Below, piece after piece: positions 49,190 to 62,863 of a DNA stretch of 64,000 nucleotides. Made by a program: the position numbers and the translations under genes. Origin of the DNA: Allobaculum sp. Allo2 (lineage in GTDB: Bacteria > Bacillota_I > Bacilli_A > Erysipelotrichales > Erysipelotrichaceae); assembly GCF_022701175.1 (NCBI RefSeq), contig NZ_CP078088.1:1116001-1180000 (forward strand), in the 5' to 3' direction. Each line of letters begins with the position of its first letter. Position 1 is the first letter of the stretch. A model generated the notes under the pieces. The model was not told the origin of the DNA and ran no database searches. It worked only from the letters and a program-made list of their open reading frames with translations.

Positions 49190-50267
49190 ACGTGTTCCTC
49201 TTCAAATGCTTTCATAAAGTCGACAAGGGCTTTTACGCCTTCTACAGGCATGGCGTTGTAAATGGAAGCGCGCATGCCGCCGACGGTACGGTGACCTTTC
49301 AGGTTTTCAAAACCGGCTTCTTTGGCTTTGGCGATGAATTCTTTATCGAGTTCCGGATCGCCGGTTACGAACGGGATGTTGACCAGGGAACGGTCTTCTA
49401 CCGCTACCGGGTTAGAGAACATCTTGGAGTTATCGAGGTAGTCATAGAGAAGGCCGGCTTTTTCCTGATTGATCTTTTCCATGTTTTCCAGACCGCCGAT
49501 CTGTTCTTCGAGCCATTTGCAGACAAGGCCGACCATGTAAATGCCGTATGTAGGAGGCGTGTTGTACATGGAATCGTGGTCTACGTAAGTCTTGTAGTCG
49601 AGCATGGCCGAAGGAATATCGTCGCGCTGCTCATCGAGCAGGTCTTTCTTGATGATGACCAGAGTAACGCCGGCAGGACCGAGATTTTTCTGGGCGCCCG
49701 CAAAGATCATGTCATACTGGGTGACATCTAGCGGTTCAGTGAAAATGCAGCTCGAAAGGTCTGCAATCAGACGCTTGCCTTCATGAGGCGGCAGATTTTT
49801 GTACTTTGTTCCGTAGATGGTGTTGTTTTCGCAGATGTAGACGTAGTCTGTATCCGGATCCAGATCTTCCTGGGTAATTTTTGGAATATATGTGAACGTT
49901 TTGTCGCTGCTGTCTCCGGCAAGATGAACACGGCCAAGTTTTTCGCTTCTGCGATGGCTTTCTTTGTCCACTGACCGGTGTTGATGATATCAGCTCCGTT
50001 TTTGTTGAAGTTCATTGGAACCATGGAGAACTGAAGGTTTCCGCCTCCCTGCAGGAAGAGGATTTCGTAGTCTTCCGGAATGCTGGCCAGACGACGAATG
50101 GTATCTTTGGTTTCCTGAAGAATGGATTCGAAGGCCTTGGAACGGTGAGACATTTCCATCACGCTCATTCCAGATCCTCTGGCATCCAGCATTTCATCGG
50201 CTGCTGTTTTCAGCACCCATTCAGGCATACAGGCCGGGCCTGCAGAAAAGTTATACACTTTACTCAT
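49186..50267 (-). CDS. serC: Phosphoserine aminotransferase (frame broken)
   Basis: 360 residues. PLP enzyme converting 3-phosphohydroxypyruvate to phosphoserine. MSKVYNFSAGPACMPEWVL, EMSHRSKAF, FLQGGGNLQFSM, the PLP-lysine region FAGAQKNLGPAGVT and the C-terminal GHRTVGGMRASIYNAMP are clear. The break is in the T-run 49939-49943 (plus strand), restoring AEAKKLGRVHLAGDSSD. First gene of the minus-strand operon; serB is not present. Confidence 0.95.
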
Positions 50268-50312
50268 TTTGATCTCCGTTTCTAAATTTCCAGATTCCTG
50301 TATCGATCAGAA

Positions 50313-50339
50313 ATCGTGTACAGCGTTCACGATTCGTGA
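50313..50339 (-). promoter_or_regulatory. Overlapping palindromes upstream of serC, candidate operator
   Basis: TCACGA-T-TCGTGA (50327-50339) is a perfect 13-bp palindrome. It overlaps a second, ATCGTG...CACGAT (50313-50333). On the minus strand they fall just downstream of a TTGAGA -35-like hexamer, where a repressor could block the ser operon. The regulator is not known. Confidence 0.45.
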
Positions 50340-50824
50340 TCTCAAGAGGAATATGTAAGTTATATCACTCGAAGGGAAAGTCAAAAAATCTGGATCGGCT
50401 TTTTACTAAAATTCGCCTGAGAGTGTACGCAAATGTGAAAATTTTCATTTTTCCGGACTTGCTTTCTGAAAGAAAAATTGGTTCAGAAAACAGAGATGGC
50501 TTTCAAAAGGGCGAATCCAATCCGAATTGGGCGATGCGTGCGGAAAATACGCCGCGTAACCGTCTTTTGCCTCGAATGAACGTCCATTCGCGTACAAAAC
50601 AGAAAGAAAAACCGTGCTCTGTTCAGCCGGCGCATGCAGAAGCTGACAACCGCTCCATGCGCTCGTGTACGGCAAAAGGCTGCCGGAAAATGGGAAACGG
50701 CAGGCGGCAGTGGATTTGGTATAATGGGAAGGCTGGTCCGAGCGCGAAAATGCACAGGGAAATTCGGCGTATTGAGTCGAATGGAAAGCGACGGAAACAG
50801 CGAGAAAAACAGGGAGGAAGGCCT
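50340..50824. promoter_or_regulatory. Non-coding region with extended -10 promoter for ruvA
   Basis: TGGTATAAT (50717-50725) is an extended -10; no strong -35 is seen. The rest of the 480 nt shows no gene. A frame running through it in phase with ruvA has no start signal and unlike composition, so it is left out. Confidence 0.5.
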
Positions 50825-51484
50825 ATGATTGGATATCTGGAAGGAACCGTTTTAAAAACGCGAAAAGACAGTCTGATTCTTCAGTGCGGACCGATCGGCT
50901 TCATCGTCTATGTGCCCGCGGCCAAAAGCTACGCGCCAGGCCAGGCTCTCTCTTTATATTGTTATCAGCAGTTCAAGGAAGACGATCAGTGCCTGTACGG
51001 CTTTGAAAGCGAAGCGCTTTACGATCTGTTCGTACTCCTGATTCAGGTCAAGGGCATTGGATGCAAAATGGCGCTCAACATGCTTGCCGCCTCGAATGAA
51101 TCGTCCATTATCCGGGCGATTGAAAACGGCGATGCCGCAGCACTCAAAAAGCTGCCGGGCATCGGTGCCAAAACCGCTGGCCAGATTCTGCTCGATCTCA
51201 AGGGAAAAGTCGTTCTTCCCGAAGACAAGCCCAAATCCAAGGACAGTGCTGCTCCATCCGATCCCGTTGTCGCGGAAGTCAGCGATGCCCTGTTATCGCT
51301 GGGCTATCGTCAGCCGGAAATCGACAGTCTGAAGCTGAACGAACAGCTGGCGCAGTATCCGCAGACCGACGCGCTTTTACGCTTTGCGCTGCGTGAACTG
51401 GCGCGCAGAAAAAAGGCGTCTGAGAGGCGCCCGGATCGTCAAGTCCAAACGCGTTTAACCTTACAACAATTTCGTTCTGTCTGA
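50825..51484 (+). CDS. ruvA: Holliday junction DNA helicase subunit RuvA
   Basis: 219 residues as read. The OB-fold at the N-terminus (MIGYLEGTVL, LYGFES), two helix-hairpin-helix motifs (LIQVKGIGCKMALNML, LKKLPGIGAKTAGQILLDL) and a C-terminal domain III (SDALLSLGYRQPEI). AGGGAGGAAGGCCT precedes the ATG. The last 20 residues (SERRPDRQ...) look unnatural. One missing A in the run 51408-51414 would end the protein as ARRKKGV at 51423, giving 199 residues, the usual length. It works with RuvB encoded 300 nt downstream. Confidence 0.93.
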   Translation: MIGYLEGTVLKTRKDSLILQCGPIGFIVYVPAAKSYAPGQALSLYCYQQFKEDDQCLYGFESEALYDLFVLLIQVKGIGCKMALNMLAASNESSIIRAIENGDAAALKKLPGIGAKTAGQILLDLKGKVVLPEDKPKSKDSAAPSDPVVAEVSDALLSLGYRQPEIDSLKLNEQLAQYPQTDALLRFALRELARRKKASERRPDRQVQTRLTLQQFRSV

Positions 51485-51782
51485 ACAAATTTCTACCATA
51501 TTTATTTATTTATTAGGGATCCGTTTGGGTCTCTCTTCATAGAAGGCCGAAAATGAAATCGGTAACATTTTCTGAATAAAAGAGCAGAGAGAAATCCAGA
51601 GGAACCAGATCCGAAACGAATCGGGTCCGAACGGAATCAAACGGTTCTGAAAAAACGATCCGCAAAAGAATACGTACCCAAAGAAAAACTGGAACGAATG
51701 GATTCCAGTACTCATAAAGTAAAGCCCCCGATCCGGCGCAGTTTCTGGCGTCTCGATCGGAAAGTGAAAGAAAGGAGGACCT
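51485..51782. other. Gap between ruvA and ruvB
   Basis: About 300 nt, purine-rich with short repeated GGAA/GAACGG motifs. No gene, terminator or known RNA element is recognised. ruvA and ruvB are normally adjacent or overlapping, so the gap is unusual. Confidence 0.4.
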
Positions 51783-52814
51783 ATGGAAGAAGAACGTCTT
51801 GTAGATGCAGCCGAGCAGACCGAAGACAAAGATCAGGCGCTGCGTCCGGCAACGCTGGCGGAATACATTGGCCAGCAGGAACTGAAACAAAATCTTAACG
51901 TCTACATTCAGGCGGCCAGAAGCCGCAGCGAAGTTCTGGACCACGTCCTTTTATACGGACCTCCCGGACTGGGAAAGACGACCCTGGCGATGATCATCGC
52001 CCATGAAATGAACGGCAATCTCGTGACCGCTTCCGGTCCGGCGATTCAGAAATCCGGTGATCTGGCGGCGATTTTATCGACGCTGGAAGCCGGCGATGTG
52101 CTCTTTATTGATGAAATTCACCGCATTCCGCGCCAGATTGAAGAAATTCTCTATTCGGCGATGGAAGACTTTTATCTCGATATTGTGGTCGGAAAGGAAG
52201 GCGCTTCAGCCCATTCGATCCGTCTGGCTCTGCCGCCCTTTACGCTGGTCGGCGCAACAACCCGTGCCGGCGATCTTTCCGCGCCGCTGCGCGACCGCTT
52301 TGGCATCGTGCTGCCGCTCGAATATTACGCGCAGGCCGATCTCGAAAAGATCGTCAGCCGTACGTCGGGCATTCTCAACACATCGATTGAAGATGATGCG
52401 ATTGGCGAAGTGGCCAGACGCTCGCGCGGTACGCCGCGTATCGCCAACCGCCTGCTCCGCCGCATCCGCGACTTTGCCCAGGTGTATAACGGCGGACACA
52501 TTTCCCTTGATGTGGCCGGTGATGCGCTCGACCGCATGAAAGTCGACGATCTTGGTCTGGATCAGGTGGACCGCAAATATCTCGAAGGCATCATTTTCCG
52601 CTTTGGCGGCGGACCCGTCGGTGTAGAAGCCCTCGCCAGTTCCATTGGCGAAGACGCGGCGACACTCGAAGACATGTACGAGCCGTTTCTGCTGCAGACC
52701 GGTCTGATTAACCGGACCCCGCGCGGCCGTATTGCTACGCCGAAAGCGTACGCCCATCTGCACATTACCGAGTCGGCTTTGCACGACGAGGCAGAAGACG
52801 ATTCGCAGGATTAA
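51783..52814 (+). CDS. ruvB: Holliday junction DNA helicase RuvB
   Basis: 343 residues, unbroken. AAA+ motor of branch migration. [14 protein letters not shown], Walker [13 protein letters not shown], Walker B LFIDEIHR, sensor 1 [12 protein letters not shown], the arginine finger PLRDRFGI, sensor 2 [16 protein letters not shown], and a C-terminal winged helix ([16 protein letters not shown]). AGAAAGGAGGACCT precedes the ATG. Confidence 0.97.
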
Positions 52815-52928
52815 GGACAAATCCGGCGAATGGACAGACGCGGCAAATCTGTACTGGAAATCCGTACGGTCAATCCGTACGCTACCACCAGAACAGCCCA
52901 TCTAACAAAGACAGAGTTTAAGAAGATC

Positions 52929-52954
52929 GCGCGGCTTTCCCTGCGCGTTTTCTT
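52929..52954 (+). terminator. Weak terminator after ruvB
   Basis: CGCGC/GCGCG stem with a 10-nt loop, then TTTTCTT. Confidence 0.5.
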
Positions 52955-52997
52955 ACGCTCTCTCACGAATTTTCCATACTGAAAAGGAGAACGAACT

Positions 52998-53501
52998 ATG
53001 CGATCCGTTTCGCGGCTTTCCTCTACGCTTTCTGAAACCGCTCTGGCAGTTCTGCTCGTTTTGGGCGTGCCTTTGCTGAGCGCCTGCGGTTCGTCCAGAC
53101 GGACCGTCAGCTGTACGCAGACCAACGAGAACGGAAGTCTTTCTCTTCGTATGAGCGCACCTTCCGAACAGAGCCAGGTCGAACTTCTGGAAATTACCAT
53201 GAAGTATCCGCACGATTTCGATCAGCAGCTGACCGGCTATCGGGTCCCTTTGCAGGAAGGGGACAGCGACGGCTCCAAAACAAAAAGCGCGCTGATTGCG
53301 GATGCCCTTGCGCAGACGCTTGGCATTCAGGCCGATCTGGTCAAAGTGAAGCGAGAAGATGATGGCTATATCGCCAGCGCGACAATTCAGAACATCCCCG
53401 CTCTGTTTGCCTCCCTTGGTCTGAGCGCAGACGGACTCGATCTCGACGAAATTGAAGCCGCCCTCGAACAGGATGCGCAGTTTGCCTGTCTGCCCGAGTA
53501 G
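52998..53501 (+). CDS. Small lipoprotein, paralogue 1 of 3
   Basis: 167 residues. N-terminal signal with lipobox LLSAC (lipidated Cys about residue 31), then SSRRTVSCTQTNENGSLSLRMSAP and a beta/alpha domain ending QFACLPE. It shares with the genes at 58973 and 59914 a 'CT' just after the lipobox, a beta-hairpin AP-S/F motif and a cysteine within four residues of the C-terminus. It resembles the DUF1307/YehR-like lipoprotein group, function unknown. GAAAAGGAGAACGAACT precedes the ATG. Confidence 0.75.
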   Translation: MRSVSRLSSTLSETALAVLLVLGVPLLSACGSSRRTVSCTQTNENGSLSLRMSAPSEQSQVELLEITMKYPHDFDQQLTGYRVPLQEGDSDGSKTKSALIADALAQTLGIQADLVKVKREDDGYIASATIQNIPALFASLGLSADGLDLDEIEAALEQDAQFACLPE

Positions 53502-53715
53502 GATCGCCAGATCGGCAAAAGAAAAGCGGTGTTTAAACCATCGAAAACAGATGTACAGACCGATTTACGGGAAGGAGCAGCGGCTCTTTCCCGTTTTCCG
53601 CTTTACGCCCGACTGGCTTTCCAGAAAAGAATCCTTTCTTTTTCGCACCGAGCGTAGCAGCACGAATCGTCCGTTCGGGGTGGAGAAAAAGGGCGTGGAT
53701 ATAATGGAGATGCCT

Positions 53716-55340
53716 ATGAAAAATGAAAAAACAACCGCGGGAACGGCAGATTTGTCCTCCGCCGCTTCCCATTCAGAACAAAGGACACCCGTTCTTTCGG
53801 GTCTGGCGTACAAGATTTTGAATCACGCCCATCTCGATGAAAAAGAGCGGGACGAAATTCTTCATCCCTCCCCGCTTCGTCCCGTCTGCACGGCTAAATG
53901 CATGCAGGACTTTGTAAAGCGTATGGAAGAGGCGAGAGAAAAGGGCCAGAAAGTGCTGATCGCGGGCGATTACGACTGCGACGGCATTATGTCGACGATT
54001 ATTTTGTATCAGGGCCTGAAACGGTATGGCCTGGAAACGATGTACTACATTCCCGACCGCTTAAAAGAAGGATACGGCTTAAGTGAGCAGACCGTTGAAA
54101 AGGCAGCAAAAGCCAGCTATGACTTGATCATCACGGTCGATAACGGCGTATCGGCTGGTTCCGCGCTGGAACAAGCCAGAGAACTTGGCGTGGATGTGAT
54201 CGTTACCGATCATCATCTGTACGAAGATGAACCGGACTGCACGCTGCTCGTTCACCCGATGAAAATGGGCGAAGACTTTGATGTATTGTGCGGTGCTGGC
54301 GTCGCCTTTGAATGCGTACGGGCGTTAGGCATAGAGGAAGAAAAATTTCTGATCTATGCGGCGGTCGCTTCGATTGCCGACTGCATGCCTGTCTTTAAGG
54401 AAACCCGATCGATTATTCAGGAAGGTCTCAAGGCGCTCAACGCCCATCACGAACCGCATTTTGATCCGTTCATTCGCTCCTATCCAGTGTGTGAAACGGA
54501 TATTTCCTTTCAGGTTGCTCCTTGCATCAACGCCCTGGGCCGTCTGAGCGACCGGGCCAAAGTGAATACGTTTGTCCGCTACATGGAAAGCACGAATCCG
54601 ATCGAAATTCAGAAATACGCTGCGCGTGTAATGGAAATCAACGAAGCGCGCAAAGAAATGACGTATCAGGTGCAAAGCCAGGCGCTTGCGGAAATTAATC
54701 CGCTTTCCGCCATTCTCTTTGCGATTTCCCGAATTTCCATGAAGGCATTATCGGTCTGGCGGCCGGCCGGCTGAGCTCCCAGTTCGATAAGCCGGCGATT
54801 GTCGGAACCTTAAACGGCGATGTAGCCAAATTCAGCATGCGCGCTCCCGAAGGCTATCACTGCCTGGAATTCCTGCAGAAATACGATGGCTTTCTTGCCC
54901 TTGGCGGTCACGCACAGGCAGCGGGATTCGCCCTGCCGGCGGGTAAAGTCGAGGATTTTCGAAGCTTTCTGATCAAAAACGCCTCCAAAATGGTGCGGAC
55001 CAAAATGCCGGCTGAACCGATGGAAATCGAAGTGTCGGACATCACCGTTGAAAACATGGATTCTCTGCAGGCGATTCGTCCGTTTGGAACCGGCTTTAAA
55101 ATGCCCGCATTTGAAATCGATCAGCCGCTGATTCTTAAAAGCTTCGACTTTTCGCAAGGCCGTCATCGCCGCTTTTATCTCGATGGCGGCATCAACGCGA
55201 TTCATTTCAACCAGACCTCTACGGATAAGCTGGCCAAACAGGAAGGCATTGAAAAGCTGATCGGCTCGATTTCCATCTCGACCTGGAACGGTACGCGAAA
55301 AGCCGAGTTCATGATCGACGAAATCGTCTACGAAATCTGA
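53716..55340 (+). CDS. recJ: Single-stranded-DNA exonuclease RecJ (frame broken)
   Basis: 541 residues. DHH-family 5'-3' exonuclease. Motif I IAGDYDCDGIMST, ITVDNGVSAG, VIVTDHHLYEDEPD (DHH), INALGRLSDRAKVNTF, then LALGGHAQAAGFALP (DHHA1) and an OB-fold (about 430-541). Break: TTT at 54718-54720; one more T gives ILFCDFPNFHEGIIGLAAGR. Start ATG 53716 was chosen; a TATAAT at 53700-53705 lies just upstream, so the leader would be very short. It lacks the long C-terminal extension of B. subtilis YrvE. Confidence 0.93.
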
Positions 55341-55562
55341 TCGGAAAAAGTCGTTTTCTGCAGGAAAGCGTGTCGGTTTAAAGCGGCATATGTGCAAATT
55401 TGTGCAGAGATCTCGCAGCTGCAGAGCGCACTCGAAAAAATACCGGTACAATCAGACTGTACAGAAGCTCAGAAATTCGGTACGCTTGATGTTCTGTTCC
55501 TCTTGGATGGAACAGTGTGAAAAAGAAGAAGTGCTGCAAAGCAGCCAGGAGAAAATACAACT

Positions 55563-56083
55563 ATGGATTTAAAAACCAGAATCGCTTCGATTCCCGGATT
55601 TCCAAAAGAAGGCATCATTTTCCGGGATATCACGCCGATCCTTGCCGATCCGGAAGCGCTCGCGCAGACTGCGACTGAAATCGGAAATTTTGCCAAAGAA
55701 GTAAACGCGGATGTCATCGTGGCTCCGGAAGCCCGCGGCTTCATGTTCGGCATTCCAGCCGCCATGGACGCGAAAATTCCGTTCATTCCCGTACGCAAAC
55801 CGGGCAAACTCCGCGTCGTACCATTACGGAAACATACACGCTCGAATACGGCGAAGATTCCCTGCAGATGCATGCGGAAGATCTCAAACCGGGAAGCCGC
55901 GTTCTGATCGTGGATGACCTGCTCGCAACGGGCGGAACGTGCGAAGCGATCGCCAGCATGGTTCGCAAGGAAGGCTCCGAAGTAGTCGGCTTCGCGTTCG
56001 TTGTCGAACTCGATGACCTCAAGGCCCGCGCGAAATTCGGCGATACGCCGGTTCTTTCCCTCGTTCACTACGAAGGCGAATAG
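55563..56083 (+). CDS. apt: Adenine phosphoribosyltransferase (frame broken)
   Basis: 173 residues. It salvages adenine to AMP using PRPP. IPGFPKEGIIFRDITPI, VAPEARGFMFG and the PRPP loop VLIVDDLLATGGTCEA are present. One T is missing at 55810 (CTT read as CT); restoring it gives RKPGKLPRRTITETYTLEYG. CCAGGAGAAAATACAACT precedes the ATG. The recJ-apt-rel order is common in Bacillota. Confidence 0.95.
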
Positions 56084-56466
56084 ACGGCCGTAAAAGGACA
56101 CGCCGATTTTTAAAGCACAGGAAATCCGATTCTGAATTTGTTTTGAAAAGGGAAGAGGCTGGCCATATGTTGAAAATGTATAGGACAGGCATTTCCGATT
56201 GAAAAAACAAGTAAATCGAGTAAGCTTTTCCAAAAACGATTTAAAAACCAAGATTTCACATAATATGAAGAATAATCAGCAGCCGGGAAATAAATTCCGG
56301 CTGCTCGTTCATATATCCGTTTTAAAACGTGACAGAATGTTCTCATTCCAAAAACGGAAACGATTGACCATCGCTTTGGCTTACGGCGCTCCCAACGCTA
56401 GAGCAGCAAAGAGCGCATCTGTCATAAGGAAACCCGTACGAATCAGAAGATAAAAAGGAGGCACCT
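56084..56466. other. Gap between apt and rel
   Basis: No gene. Hairpin AGCAGCCGG/CCGGCTGCT (56278-56305) without a clear T-run may be a weak terminator. No recognisable promoter was found for rel. Confidence 0.45.
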
Positions 56467-58674
56467 ATGGCGACTAAACACAGCGTCACGATTGAAGAAT
56501 GTATGGAACATATTCAGACCTACATTCATCGCAAAGAAAATCTTGAGCTGATCGAAAAAGCCTGGAAATTCGCAGATCATGCCCACGAGGGACAGAAGCG
56601 AAGATCGGGCGAACCGTATACGGTTCACGTCATTCAGGTCGCCGACATTCTGGCTGGACTGCACTGTTCGCCCAAAACCATTGCCGCCGGTCTGCTCCAT
56701 GACACGCTTGAAGACTGCGATGATGTTACGTACGAAATTCTGGAACAGGAATTTTCTACGGAAATCGCCGATCTGGTCGAAGCCGTCACCAAAATTGGAA
56801 AGATCAAAAGGAATTCAAGGACGAAAAGGAATACCAGGCCAGCAATCACCGCAAAATCTTTATCGCGATGGCCAAGGACGTCCGCGTCATTCTGATCAAA
56901 CTGGCTGACCGTCTTCATAACATGCGCACACTGGAATACCAGTCCGAATCCGCGCAGAAGCGCATCGCCCGCGAAACGCTCCAGGTGTACGCGCCGATCG
57001 CCCATCGTCTTGGTATTTCGCAGGTAAAAACGAACTCGAAGATCTGAGCTTCAAGTATCTCGATCCAAGAGAATACCAGAACATCAAGCAGCTCGTCGCC
57101 AACCGCGAAAGCGAACGTAACGAGCAGGTTACCGAGATGATCAACGACATCAAGACCATTCTCGACAATTACCATATTCCATACCGTATTTTCGGCCGCT
57201 CCAAGCACTTCTACTCCATCCATAAAAAGATGGTCACCAAGCACAAACGCTTCGAAGAAATTCTCGACTTGCAGGCGATTCGAATCATTACCGATTCCAT
57301 CGCGCACTGCTACGAAATTCTCGGCTACATTCACGCCACCTATACGCCAATCCCTGGCCGCTTCAAGGACTACATCGCGATGCCAAAAGCAACCTGTATC
57401 AGTCCCTGCACACAACGGTCATCTCCTCGGCATCCGGCAGCACGTTTGAAATCCAGATCCGTACCGAAGAGATGGATTCCGTTGCCGAAAAGGTGTCGCC
57501 GCCCACTGGCTGTACAAGGAAAACAAGTCTGGCATGGACGAGGGGATGCAGACGAGGGAAATGGAAGACAAGCTTTCCTGGTTCCGCGATTTCTCCATCA
57601 TCACCGACGAAGACAGTGAAGATCCGCTCGAATACATGAACACGGTGCAGAAGGACATTTTCGAAGCCAACGTCTACTGCTTCACCCCGCGCGGCAAAGT
57701 CATCTCGCTGCCCAGCGGGGCGACGCCCATTGACTTTGCCTATCGCATTCATACCGAAGTCGGCAACCATACTGTCGGCGCACAGGTCAACGGCGGCATC
57801 GTTCCGCTCAATACTCCCCTCAAAACCGGCGATGTGGTTTCGATCATGACCAACAAAGCGTCGGCCGGCCCTTCGCCCGACTGGATCAAGATCGTCAAGA
57901 GCGCCCACGCCCGAAACAAGATCCGTGCTTTTTCCAGAAACAGGCGCAGAAAGACAAGCGCGAAGATGTTCGCAAAGGACAGGAAATGTTAATGGACGAC
58001 ATGAAAAAGGCCGGACTCGATCCGTCCATCGTCCGTACATCCAAGAAAATCGACTCGATTTTGCAGAGCCTTTCCTTTAAAACGAGCGACGACCTGTACG
58101 CGGGCATTGCCGCCAAACGCATTCCGACTGCGGTCGTCATTGAACGTCTGAACACGACTAAGGCGGCCGTCGATGACAACGAAGAAATCATCAAGCTGTT
58201 CTCGAAAAACGAGAAAAGGAAAAAGTGTCCGACTGCGGCATCGTCGTACCGGGCATCGACACGATCAAAGTGTCCCTTTCGCCCTGCTGCTCGCCGATCC
58301 CCGGCGATGAAGTCGTCGGCTACATCACCAAGGGTCATGGCGTCAAAGTTCACTGCAGGGACTGCCCGAACATTGCCAAGGAGTCAAAGCGTCTGATTCC
58401 TGTCGCCTGGGGCGATAATCTCGAAGACAAAACGTATCCGGTTCACCTGCAGATCGAATCCAATGATCGCAATTATCTGCTTTCGGATCTCGTTACGGTT
58501 TTCCAGCAAAACGGCATTTCCATACGGGCCATCAATTCAACCGTCAATAGCGATTCGCTGACCGCGACGACCAAAATTGAAATCATGGTGCGGAATTCCG
58601 AATCTCTTGAACGTCTGATCGCCAATCTGCGCAAGGTTCGCTCCGTCCTTTCGGTCACCCGTGTCATCCTGTAA
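56467..58674 (+). CDS. rel: Bifunctional (p)ppGpp synthetase/hydrolase Rel (frame broken six times)
   Basis: 737 residues after correction. HD hydrolase domain ([22 protein letters not shown]), synthetase domain ([42 protein letters not shown]), TGS ([24 protein letters not shown]), a helical domain, a zinc-finger segment with CCSPIPGD and CRDCPN, and a C-terminal ACT domain. It makes and degrades the stringent-response alarmone. Breaks: A-runs 56806-56809, 57026-57030, 57385-57388 and 57488-57491, T-run 57929-57933, GG 58218-58219. AAAAAGGAGGCACCT precedes the ATG. Confidence 0.96.
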
Positions 58675-60434: not shown

Positions 60435-60497
60435 AGCTCCCCGGCGAGCAGACACGTGAAATAAACAAACGTGTTCTTCTTGAAAGGGAGCTTTTCT
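60435..60497 (+). terminator. Terminator after lipoprotein 3
   Basis: AAGCTCCC (60435-60442) pairs with GGGAGCTT (60487-60494), with an inner ACACGT/ACGTGT stem, then TTCT. Confidence 0.65.
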
Positions 60498-60724
60498 GAC
60501 CTCCACAGATGGTATCTCTCGGGGTTTCTACCTTATCTCAAGCCCCTTCAATTCAGCGATAGGTAAAGCACTTTTGGTTATCCTCCAACATTTAAGAACT
60601 TTCTAAAAGCCTCTCTCCTGATACGGTGGGGTTTTGTGGAAAAATACAGTATTTCTGTTATTTTGACCCTAAACCGTATATAATTTTCGAACAGGGATAA
60701 AAGCTCCAGAACAACCGAATTACG

Positions 60725-60752
60725 TATAATTTGCAGATAGGGTCCTATCTGC
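60725..60752 (+). promoter_or_regulatory. Promoter -10 and palindromic operator of the ImmA/XRE cassette
   Basis: TATAAT (60725-60730) is followed at once by the palindrome GCAGATAGG-GT-CCTATCTGC (60733-60752), which covers the predicted start site. Another TATAAT lies at 60679-60684. Neither has a good -35 at normal distance. The palindrome is a likely binding site for the XRE-like partner. Confidence 0.6.
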
Positions 60753-60796
60753 ATTTTGTTTCTCGTTCAAGAATTAAAGAGAAAGAGGGTGTTAAT

Positions 60797-62293
60797 GTGA
60801 AAACCATGGATGACTTCAAAGCTTATCTGTTGAAAGTATATAAAGGAAAAATCGAGGAGCGGATTTCTGAAGATTTGACAGATTTGTTTAATCAGATTTG
60901 TGAGTTCAAGAATAATTGGTGCAAACAACCAGTCATTAAGTCTGATTTCACTCTGCTTGAATGCGAGCTAGAATTTTCTTCAATGTCGAAAATTATCGCA
61001 CATCTCCTGGTCGATGTTCATTTCGCTTGTTATGAAGTGACAATGGATAATGATGGAAATGCCGACTGGGATGTCTACGCTGCTGACCAACACACTGGAG
61101 CCTATCTTAAGCTCGAGGCGGATATCAAAGACGATCTCACCTGGTTTCAAATCTGCGATTCTTCACTGATCATTTCTGAAGATCCTTTTGAATACTTCAA
61201 AGCAAGACTTCCGGAAAATGGCCTGTTCTACTCAGACAAACTTCTCCCCCAAATTACATCTCACGACCTTAACGCTGTCGCATGTAGATTCCTGGAGGAC
61301 TGCTATTATTCCAACCCTGAATGTGAACGTGGCAAAGAAATCGACCTCATGAAGTTGGCGGAAAATATGAGGCTGACCGTTAAACTGATCAGTACCCTGT
61401 GCCGTCATGAAATTGACGGACAAATCTTCTTCAGTGATGGAACATACACCGATTACAATATGTGGACCGATACTTGCTCACAGGAAAACGCTACTCCTGG
61501 AACTGTGGTGGTTTATACGGGCCACTCTAGCAATCGGCACAACAACACATTAGTTCATGAGTGCTTGCACTGGTATTTGCATCGAGCATCATTCTATTTG
61601 CAGAGACTATTAGGACATGAGCTGCCGAGCATAACTTGTCGAAAAAGCACAATGCAAGGCTATGAACACGGTGATTACTGTCAAATTCGCGAGTGGCAAT
61701 CCAATAAGATTTCCCCACTCGTGCTGGTTCCATCCAGTGATAACTTACTGGAGTTAGCCCATGCTGAATTTGAAAAGGTGATTCAATCAGATCCCGGGTG
61801 TTTTCAACTAGATGCGGCAGACTCTGTAATCCGATCATTGGCAAAAAAATATAACGTATCTCCTCAGCTTTTTGCGATCCGCCTCAAAGAAGAAGGGGCA
61901 AAAAACTTAGACGGCTTTTATCGGTGTCCAAACAAAAAGTCTGTTGGCTTATCTTCCTATTGCGATCCATACCTTCTTCGTGATTGGGAACTGCGATTTG
62001 GTCAAACCTATGACATTTCTTTAGAAGAGTTTGAACAGTGGCTAGAAGAGAATCCTACAATGAAAGAAGCCCACGATCTCAACATCATTAAGCATATTGA
62101 CGGTCACGTGTGCCTAGTGAAACCAAATTTATGTTCGCCGGTCAGTCCATCAAATTTATCTGAGTATGCCCGAATGCATATGGATGAATTCTGCCTTGTT
62201 TTTAACGAAAACAAATCTCGAAATTCTTATGGAGACAATTCATCCATCCAAAACCCGAATCGTGCTGTTCCTGTTGATACTTTTAAAAGGTGA
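60797..62293 (+). CDS. ImmA/IrrE-type metalloprotease with long N-terminal extension
   Basis: 498 residues, unbroken and visibly more A+T-rich than the host genes. The zinc motif HECLH lies at about residue 254. It is followed by EWQSNKISPLVLVP, matching the ExxAN-x-FAxxLLMP-like element that supplies the third ligand in ImmA/IrrE (DUF955) proteases, then LAKKYNVSPQLFAIRLKEEG, the family's C-terminal helix pattern. The first 200 residues match nothing I know. GTG 60797 has AAAGAGGG upstream. The stop overlaps the next start (GTGA). Family known roles: cleavage of repressors, or as the toxic part of toxin-antitoxin-like pairs. Which applies here is inference. Confidence 0.75.
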   Translation: MKTMDDFKAYLLKVYKGKIEERISEDLTDLFNQICEFKNNWCKQPVIKSDFTLLECELEFSSMSKIIAHLLVDVHFACYEVTMDNDGNADWDVYAADQHTGAYLKLEADIKDDLTWFQICDSSLIISEDPFEYFKARLPENGLFYSDKLLPQITSHDLNAVACRFLEDCYYSNPECERGKEIDLMKLAENMRLTVKLISTLCRHEIDGQIFFSDGTYTDYNMWTDTCSQENATPGTVVVYTGHSSNRHNNTLVHECLHWYLHRASFYLQRLLGHELPSITCRKSTMQGYEHGDYCQIREWQSNKISPLVLVPSSDNLLELAHAEFEKVIQSDPGCFQLDAADSVIRSLAKKYNVSPQLFAIRLKEEGAKNLDGFYRCPNKKSVGLSSYCDPYLLRDWELRFGQTYDISLEEFEQWLEENPTMKEAHDLNIIKHIDGHVCLVKPNLCSPVSPSNLSEYARMHMDEFCLVFNENKSRNSYGDNSSIQNPNRAVPVDTFKR

Positions 62294-62733
62294 AACAGAT
62301 CATTCTGACAAACCCAACCAACCAGGAAGCAATGCAGTGGATCAAGAAACAAAGTGACGATATTCGCAATACACTGCGGACACTTGTTCAAGAGTTGAGC
62401 GCCGATACCAAAACTCTAAAAAAGTGGTCTGGATATACTACTGAAGCCATAGCCTATCAGGGTCATATAAGCGAAAGTGCGTTCAAAAATATCCTTTCTA
62501 GCAAAACCGAGGAGCCAAAACTCGAGACGCTCATCTGCCTTTGTTTTGGTATGAAATTGCCATACAAGCTTTCACTTGCTCTTTTGGAAGCCGGTGGAAA
62601 ACACCTCAATAATTCTGAAACGCAATCTTGCTACGATGAGATATTGCAGAACTATACATATGATTCACTCGAAGTCGCCAACGCATATCTAGCCTGGTGC
62701 GATATAAAACCTCTAGGAAATCCGTTGGATTAG
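62290..62733 (+). CDS. XRE-like helix-turn-helix protein paired with the ImmA-type protease
   Basis: 147 residues. The central part (ISESAFKNILSSKTEEPKLE followed by TLICLCFGMKLPYKLSLALLEAGG) is the HTH_3/XRE recognition pattern with the typical 'P-x-L-E-T-L-I-x-I-C' and 'LLEAG' ends. The N-terminal 50 residues are helical and the C-terminal 50 may bind a partner. GTG start inside the ImmA stop codon (GTGA) implies translational coupling. It is the probable repressor of, and antidote or substrate for, the upstream protease. Composition is A+T-rich like its partner. Confidence 0.7.
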   Translation: MKQIILTNPTNQEAMQWIKKQSDDIRNTLRTLVQELSADTKTLKKWSGYTTEAIAYQGHISESAFKNILSSKTEEPKLETLICLCFGMKLPYKLSLALLEAGGKHLNNSETQSCYDEILQNYTYDSLEVANAYLAWCDIKPLGNPLD

Positions 62734-62767
62734 GTATTTCAAGTAACCAAATCAACCCCTGTAAAAA

Positions 62768-62809
62768 CCTCCAGAACGCGGAAACCAACCATTGTTCGGA
62801 GGCTTTTTT
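62768..62809 (+). terminator. Terminator of the ImmA/XRE cassette
   Basis: CCTCC-(A)-GAAC pairs with GTTC-GGAGG, then TTTTTT. Confidence 0.85.
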
Positions 62810-62863
62810 GTGCTCGTACTTTATTTAAAGCATTAGTTGTACGTTGCTTCACCACAATCATTG

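Follow-up and report, generated by a model that had tools for sequence, protein, structure and literature searches.

A predicted single-chain M78 protease-HTH protein of Firmicutes prophages, read as two genes in an Allobaculum genome

What do two overlapping reading frames at the edge of a mobile region encode, and whom do they serve? The window analysed here, 64,000 nucleotides of Allobaculum sp. Allo2 (NZ_CP078088.1, positions 1,116,001 to 1,180,000), was first interpreted from its letters alone. This sequence-only reading described a self-contained cassette of an ImmA/IrrE protease gene followed by an XRE-like gene, and proposed a defence or toxin-antitoxin system. Several elements on which it was built are indeed present (Table 1): the frames of 498 and 147 aa share GTGA, they are A+T-rich (G+C 0.42-0.44 vs about 0.51 around), a perfect -10 hexamer precedes them, and the first frame contains both HECLH and the EWQSN third-ligand motif.

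The protease part and the HTH part of the window copy, however, match a single profile rather than two. Both frames fall in order on separate parts of one PHROG family, phrog_4031 (626 positions), and together span most of that profile, the 498-aa piece on profile positions 129-454 (E 2e-38) and the 147-aa piece on positions 493-624 (E 3e-14). Another genome of the same genus (G001) holds the same prophage with an intact ORF of 645 residues (locus L006) spanning both pieces. The one open frame that is interrupted in the window assembly is thus found in a near-identical copy; the otherwise co-linear DNAs show a length difference of one base at the junction. Single chains of 600-670 residues make up about 90% of the 171 relatives collected, among which some shorter ones sit at contig ends. 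Frame breaks are common in the window assembly: with the proteins of G001 as reference, 16/38 prophage proteins and 4/6 chromosomal ones were broken into more than one frame, and in the reverse comparison, with the window-genome proteins as reference, the corresponding values in G001 were 8/46 and 1/6. The dN/dS between the window and G001 copies is 0.14 before the break and 0.05 after it; both halves are under purifying selection. Given the shared profile, the intact frame in G001, the predominance of single-chain relatives, the frequent frame breaks and the low dN/dS, it is practically certain that the two ORFs are one prophage gene. A true two-gene operon, protease first and HTH protein second as a natural split of the family, is barely credible: the GTGA overlap does resemble translational coupling and a few other relatives look split too (L142, L175, L210), but those are mostly draft metagenome contigs, breaks occur assembly-wide, and the window copy is off by one base in length from its otherwise co-linear intact counterpart. 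The two-gene operon was therefore set aside on the intact relative, the frame-break rate of the assembly and the selection on both sides.

The likeliest cause of the break is an assembly error; the window copy may also carry a real recent break, intact copies existing elsewhere. The listed completeness of the window genome is 58% despite its single 2.7-Mb contig. At 49767-58674 of the window, housekeeping genes (serC-, recJ-, relA-like and others) each lie in several frames, which fits an indel-rich assembly. Given these split genes, gene-content claims from this genome call for care, and frame breaks in error-prone assemblies may more widely mimic translationally coupled operons.

Table 1. 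Features of the M78-HTH locus (window coordinates; domain limits are predictions)
Feature	Position	Strand	Remarks
Left prophage limit	60478..60514	.	Similarity to the G001 copy of the prophage starts here (blastn, window genome G000 vs G001)
-10 hexamer TATAAT	60725..60730	+	Direct reading; perfect; identical in G001
Dyad GCAGATAGG-GT-CCTATCTGC	60733..60752	.	Candidate operator or leader hairpin
First ORF piece	60797..62293	+	498 aa, GTG start; N-terminal piece of the single-chain M78-HTH gene
Putative N-terminal cystatin/NTF2-like domain	60797..61186	+	Residues ~1-130; AF2 model and structure comparison, Z 6-7, weak
Predicted CapP/IrrE-like M78 protease core and C-terminal sensor-like domain	61241..62191	+	Residues ~149-465; CapP Z 10.3, IrrE 9.2
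HECLH zinc-binding motif	61556..61570	+	Residues 254-258; invariant in aligned relatives
Third zinc ligand Glu299 (in EWQSN)	61691..61693	+	Invariant in aligned relatives
Frame-break junction	62284..62293	+	One-base length difference to intact relative; source of the apparent GTGA overlap
Second ORF piece	62290..62733	+	147 aa; C-terminal part of the same gene
Predicted XRE/Cro-type HTH	62386..62601	+	Alignment to L168 residues 515-587
Terminator-like hairpin and T-run	62768..62810	+	3' of second ORF
Sigma-70 region-4-like phage gene	63022..63522	+	Follows the M78-HTH gene in most relatives

AlphaFold2 models were built of the 498-aa piece (pLDDT 84.5) and of L168, a full-length relative of 629 aa from Bacillus xiamenensis (pLDDT 87.3); they show three blocks, with a low-confidence, presumably flexible linker preceding the HTH. 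According to these models the protein combines an N-terminal cystatin/NTF2-like domain, a CapP/IrrE-like M78 protease and a C-terminal XRE HTH. The protease core (residues ~150-465) compares with CapP at Z 14.6 for L168 and 10.3 for the window piece, and with IrrE/PprI at Z 8.2-11.6, while L168 residues 515-587 resemble Cro, CapH, DdrO, ImmR and R-M controller proteins (Z 7-8). The combination by which M78 (ImmA/IrrE) peptidases are recognised, HExxH plus a Glu ligand within the M78 fold, occurs in the predicted fold of the window protein, and the H, E, H and third-ligand E are unchanged across the aligned relatives. The PADLOC capP model matched 55/60 relatives and any single RmrA model at most 4/60, weakly; the Pfam M78 model fell below threshold with the window protein (E 0.049) but was detected in 37/60 relatives. 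No match to the window piece was obtained in a PDB sequence search at E<=10. The ImmA/IrrE-type protease and XRE-type HTH of the sequence-only reading are supported by these comparisons, but its unmatched N-terminal domain of 200 residues shrinks to about 130 in the structure prediction. In that block a helix packs on a curved sheet, an arrangement that is cystatin-, NTF2- or VirB8-like; the assignment is tentative, Z 6-7 being the level of common arrangements.

Two scans confirmed 165 viral and 197 genome loci of the family. It was reached only by alignment-based search, the viral-contig scan with the window protein alone returning nothing. This large and widespread family comprises single-chain zinc-protease/DNA-binding proteins of Firmicutes prophages, which most of the inspected phage records label hypothetical protein and which, as phrog_4031, are of unknown function in PHROG. 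Compared with that profile, the window copy is frame-broken and the first ~129 family positions are unmatched by the window protein. Homologues always fixed in core chromosomes, with neither toxicity nor a phage phenotype, had been named as an observation that would speak against a defence or toxin-antitoxin system; in the part of that survey that was run, they sit in prophages and viral contigs instead. Experiments on any family member were not found in the literature, and no papers on the family beside R-M genes were recognised in the open literature, which is weak evidence of absence. Probably the family is a one-chain counterpart of the two-gene ImmA/ImmR and CapP/CapH switches.

The placement at the edge of a mobile element was correct: the M78-HTH gene is the first gene inside a prophage of ~52 kb (window ~60478 to genome ~1228445), and phage-type genes follow it. 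In G001 the same prophage is inserted elsewhere, flanked by an Rrf2-type gene and a cysK-like gene. The true ends of the prophage are uncertain, because no direct repeat of >=10 bp was found between the tested ends. Transposase-like sequence stands directly after the right limit of similarity (G000:C1 from ~1228445), and the right end is therefore uncertain as well. The prophage encodes two large serine recombinases. A sister prophage of G001 has a classical ImmR-ImmA pair in the equivalent slot, and relatives of its ImmR, ImmA or S24 protein were not found in the window prophage. There, a search for other repressors gave no HTH_3 match at E<=0.01, a search by which another repressor type may be missed.

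The neighbours were counted in 75 non-redundant loci that had sufficient flanking sequence. Within a distance of five genes, 56 of these loci have R-M genes on the upstream side and two on the downstream side, several unlabelled upstream genes being R-M genes as well, and phage early genes follow the M78-HTH gene in 62. The neighbourhood in relatives is rich in defence genes, as had been anticipated, and the family marks the place where, in many Firmicutes prophages, a defence-cargo site meets the phage early genes. Whatever its function, it can serve as a marker for locating prophage-borne defence cargo. Relatives also adjoin other cargo, such as tet(W) and genes for Rib-domain and S-layer proteins, and L127 has DUF5986 and RmrA as neighbours. 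When non-overlapping pairs of relatives, 60-97% identical, were compared, only the downstream phage side was kept in 19 pairs, only the upstream cargo side in five, both in two and neither in 14. The M78-HTH gene stays with the phage side when the cargo changes; this is support rather than proof, because only a modest number of lineages contributed pairs. In none of 19 matched plasmid records is 80% of the protein covered at a single site, and the plasmid copies inspected are truncated, broken or HTH only, adjoining R-M genes without a phage module. Examples are Enterococcus and Lactococcus plasmids with broken or truncated family copies beside R-M genes (L258:5108-6663, L259:5983-6339, L047:7596-8837). 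The pair comparison and the plasmid records place the gene on the phage side and not among the defence cargo, where it had initially been put. A dedicated R-M partner, at first favoured from the upstream R-M counts, was weakened by the same two results.

The M78-HTH protein is probably a single-chain protease-repressor switch, a reading adopted because of its homology to PprI-DdrO and CapP-CapH. PprI and CapP cleave HTH repressors once single-stranded DNA has activated them (PMC10904395, PMC13373217). The HTH would repress its own promoter and, in addition, phage or cargo genes; in response to DNA damage, to single-stranded DNA or to infection, the M78 domain would cleave either the HTH part of the same protein or a partner repressor and so end the repression, the cleavage being modelled on that of ImmR by ImmA, DdrO by IrrE and CapH by CapP. 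Signal, substrate, cleavage in cis or in trans, operator and target genes are what we infer from these analogues. Granted such a switch, it rather probably serves mainly the prophage life cycle and not the cargo. The two parts together, a single-chain switch serving mainly the prophage, are in our judgement the best explanation as a whole, with an even chance of being right. The CapP/IrrE fold, the XRE HTH, the invariant metal ligands, the downstream phage early genes, the pair comparison (19 vs 5), the incomplete plasmid copies, the ImmR-ImmA pair in the sister's slot and the absence of any further HTH_3 match in the window prophage argue for it. Against it, a terminator usually lies between the M78-HTH gene and the phage early genes, the gene is often close behind an upstream cargo gene, the dyad has neither a second good copy in the prophage nor a strong counterpart in relatives, and the gene is not always the sole repressor, a CI-like one adjoining it in some S. 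suis phages. If a single-chain protease-repressor is what the gene encodes, it offers a way into damage sensing by these prophages.

Control of the adjacent defence cargo, with the protein as a single-chain counterpart of CapH+CapP holding R-M low until DNA damage or infection, is less probable but still carries weight. CapH+CapP do control adjacent immune operons, and the skew of R-M genes to the upstream side, the short same-strand gaps there, the terminator behind the gene and the occurrence of its C-terminal module both fused to HsdR (two loci) and free-standing beside R-M genes would fit such a role, as would L063, in which the gene shares its direction with McrBC-like genes and the phage genes diverge from it. 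Yet the cargo changes while gene and phage side remain, the gene also adjoins non-defence cargo, plasmids keep R-M genes while the gene is incomplete, and same-type prophages L241 and L244 have R-M-type genes in that slot without it. It is unlikely, though not by far, that the family is one of self-processing repressors, a zinc metalloprotease and the XRE repressor it cleaves in one polypeptide; such a metalloprotease analogue of LexA/CI would control prophage immunity and, via the border position, the adjacent defence cargo. We give a low probability to a stand-alone anti-phage effector whose protease attacks a protein of the invader and whose HTH merely autoregulates: the site borders defence-rich cargo, the gene has a terminator of its own and M78 domains are known in defence systems, but the gene stays with the phage module instead of being swapped like cargo, and in characterised relatives M78 with an XRE HTH points to regulation. 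Least credible among the single-gene readings is an anti-restriction protease shielding phage or element DNA from R-M enzymes with the same C-terminal module, with an effect like that of ArdC, a metalloprotease-fold protein which overcomes HsdRMS restriction (PMC7213743), for the module ends the HsdR of L194 and L204 but these are just two fusions among the loci and most adjacent R-M enzymes are without it.

The control elements bear on the switch reading as well. The 20-bp palindrome described as an operator over the start site is real, with two perfect 9-bp arms flanking 2 bp, and inverted repeats scoring as high occurred in 3/103 shuffled upstream regions of relatives; its role as operator is one of two readings, since it scores equally as a terminator-like hairpin (9 pairs and a T-rich tail). 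An operator regulon was dropped: the prophage stretches searched contained no further good copy, and the counterparts upstream of relatives were weak. No -35 element was found upstream of the gene by consensus scan. Similarly, the proposed terminator exists as a hairpin with a T-run, but its folding energy is ordinary for its composition (z -0.74). Terminator-like elements stand 3' of 65/102 relatives vs 4/102 control stretches, and the same-strand gaps of relatives have a median of 46 nt on the upstream side, short beside the median of about 214 nt on the downstream side.

Among known systems, CapH+CapP is close in that CapP is the nearest solved fold of the protease core and CapH resembles the HTH. 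It differs in having separate HTH and protease genes beside the immune operon they control, whereas the window family is one chain, protease before HTH, with an extra N-terminal domain, and its gene stays with the phage. ImmA/ImmR, the ICEBs1-type switch, likewise brings an M78 protease and an XRE repressor together in a mobile element, but as two proteins, the repressor ImmR and the antirepressor ImmA, with the HTH gene first and a protease of ~250 aa. IrrE/PprI-DdrO shares the M78 protease with a sensor-like domain and a similar HTH in DdrO; its genes are separate and serve a chromosomal DNA-damage regulon. RosmerTA, to which the sequence-only reading had likened the locus, pairs a separate toxin with an antitoxin that is a protease protein and often has an HTH of its own (PMC10440598). 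RmrA may combine HTH and M78 in one chain, and RosmerTA genes adjoin some relatives, as confirmed for L127 and as judged from a matching gene pattern for L186 and L118; however, RmrA has ~370-400 aa with the HTH first and requires its toxin partner. RosmerTA was ruled out: the RmrA profile gave no match to the window protein at E<=1, matches in relatives were few and weak, and no RmrT toxin adjoins the gene, whose presumed partner is the protein's own C-terminus. The transcription unit contains no other gene, and with one gene there is no second protein left for the toxin-antitoxin pair that had been suggested, type II systems consisting of two interacting proteins encoded side by side.

Some further features of these loci were noted. 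The C-terminus of HsdR in L194:4686-8654 and L204:4165-8085 bears the middle-domain-plus-HTH module that the adjacent M78-HTH protein has; a scan with the HsdR tail gave no viral relatives, and the alignment of C-terminal modules was too diverse for searching. A free-standing gene of ~270 aa with the same module (L045:6781-7599, L139:7012-7812, L098, L121, L123, L191) lies directly before the M78-HTH gene in LlaJI/McrBC-type R-M contexts. In 17 loci (e.g. L153, L163, L165) the opposite-strand gene at -1 encodes a ~70-aa HTH_26-like regulator heading the cargo operon. At its right end the G001 prophage carries a type I R-M locus whose S genes have a tyrosine recombinase gene between them (L058:303-8408; G000:C1 ~1219930-1228445 in the window genome), a layout typical of specificity-switching shufflons. 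Between the two genomes this locus shares 98-99.8% identity, compared with about 88-98% for the remainder of the prophage.
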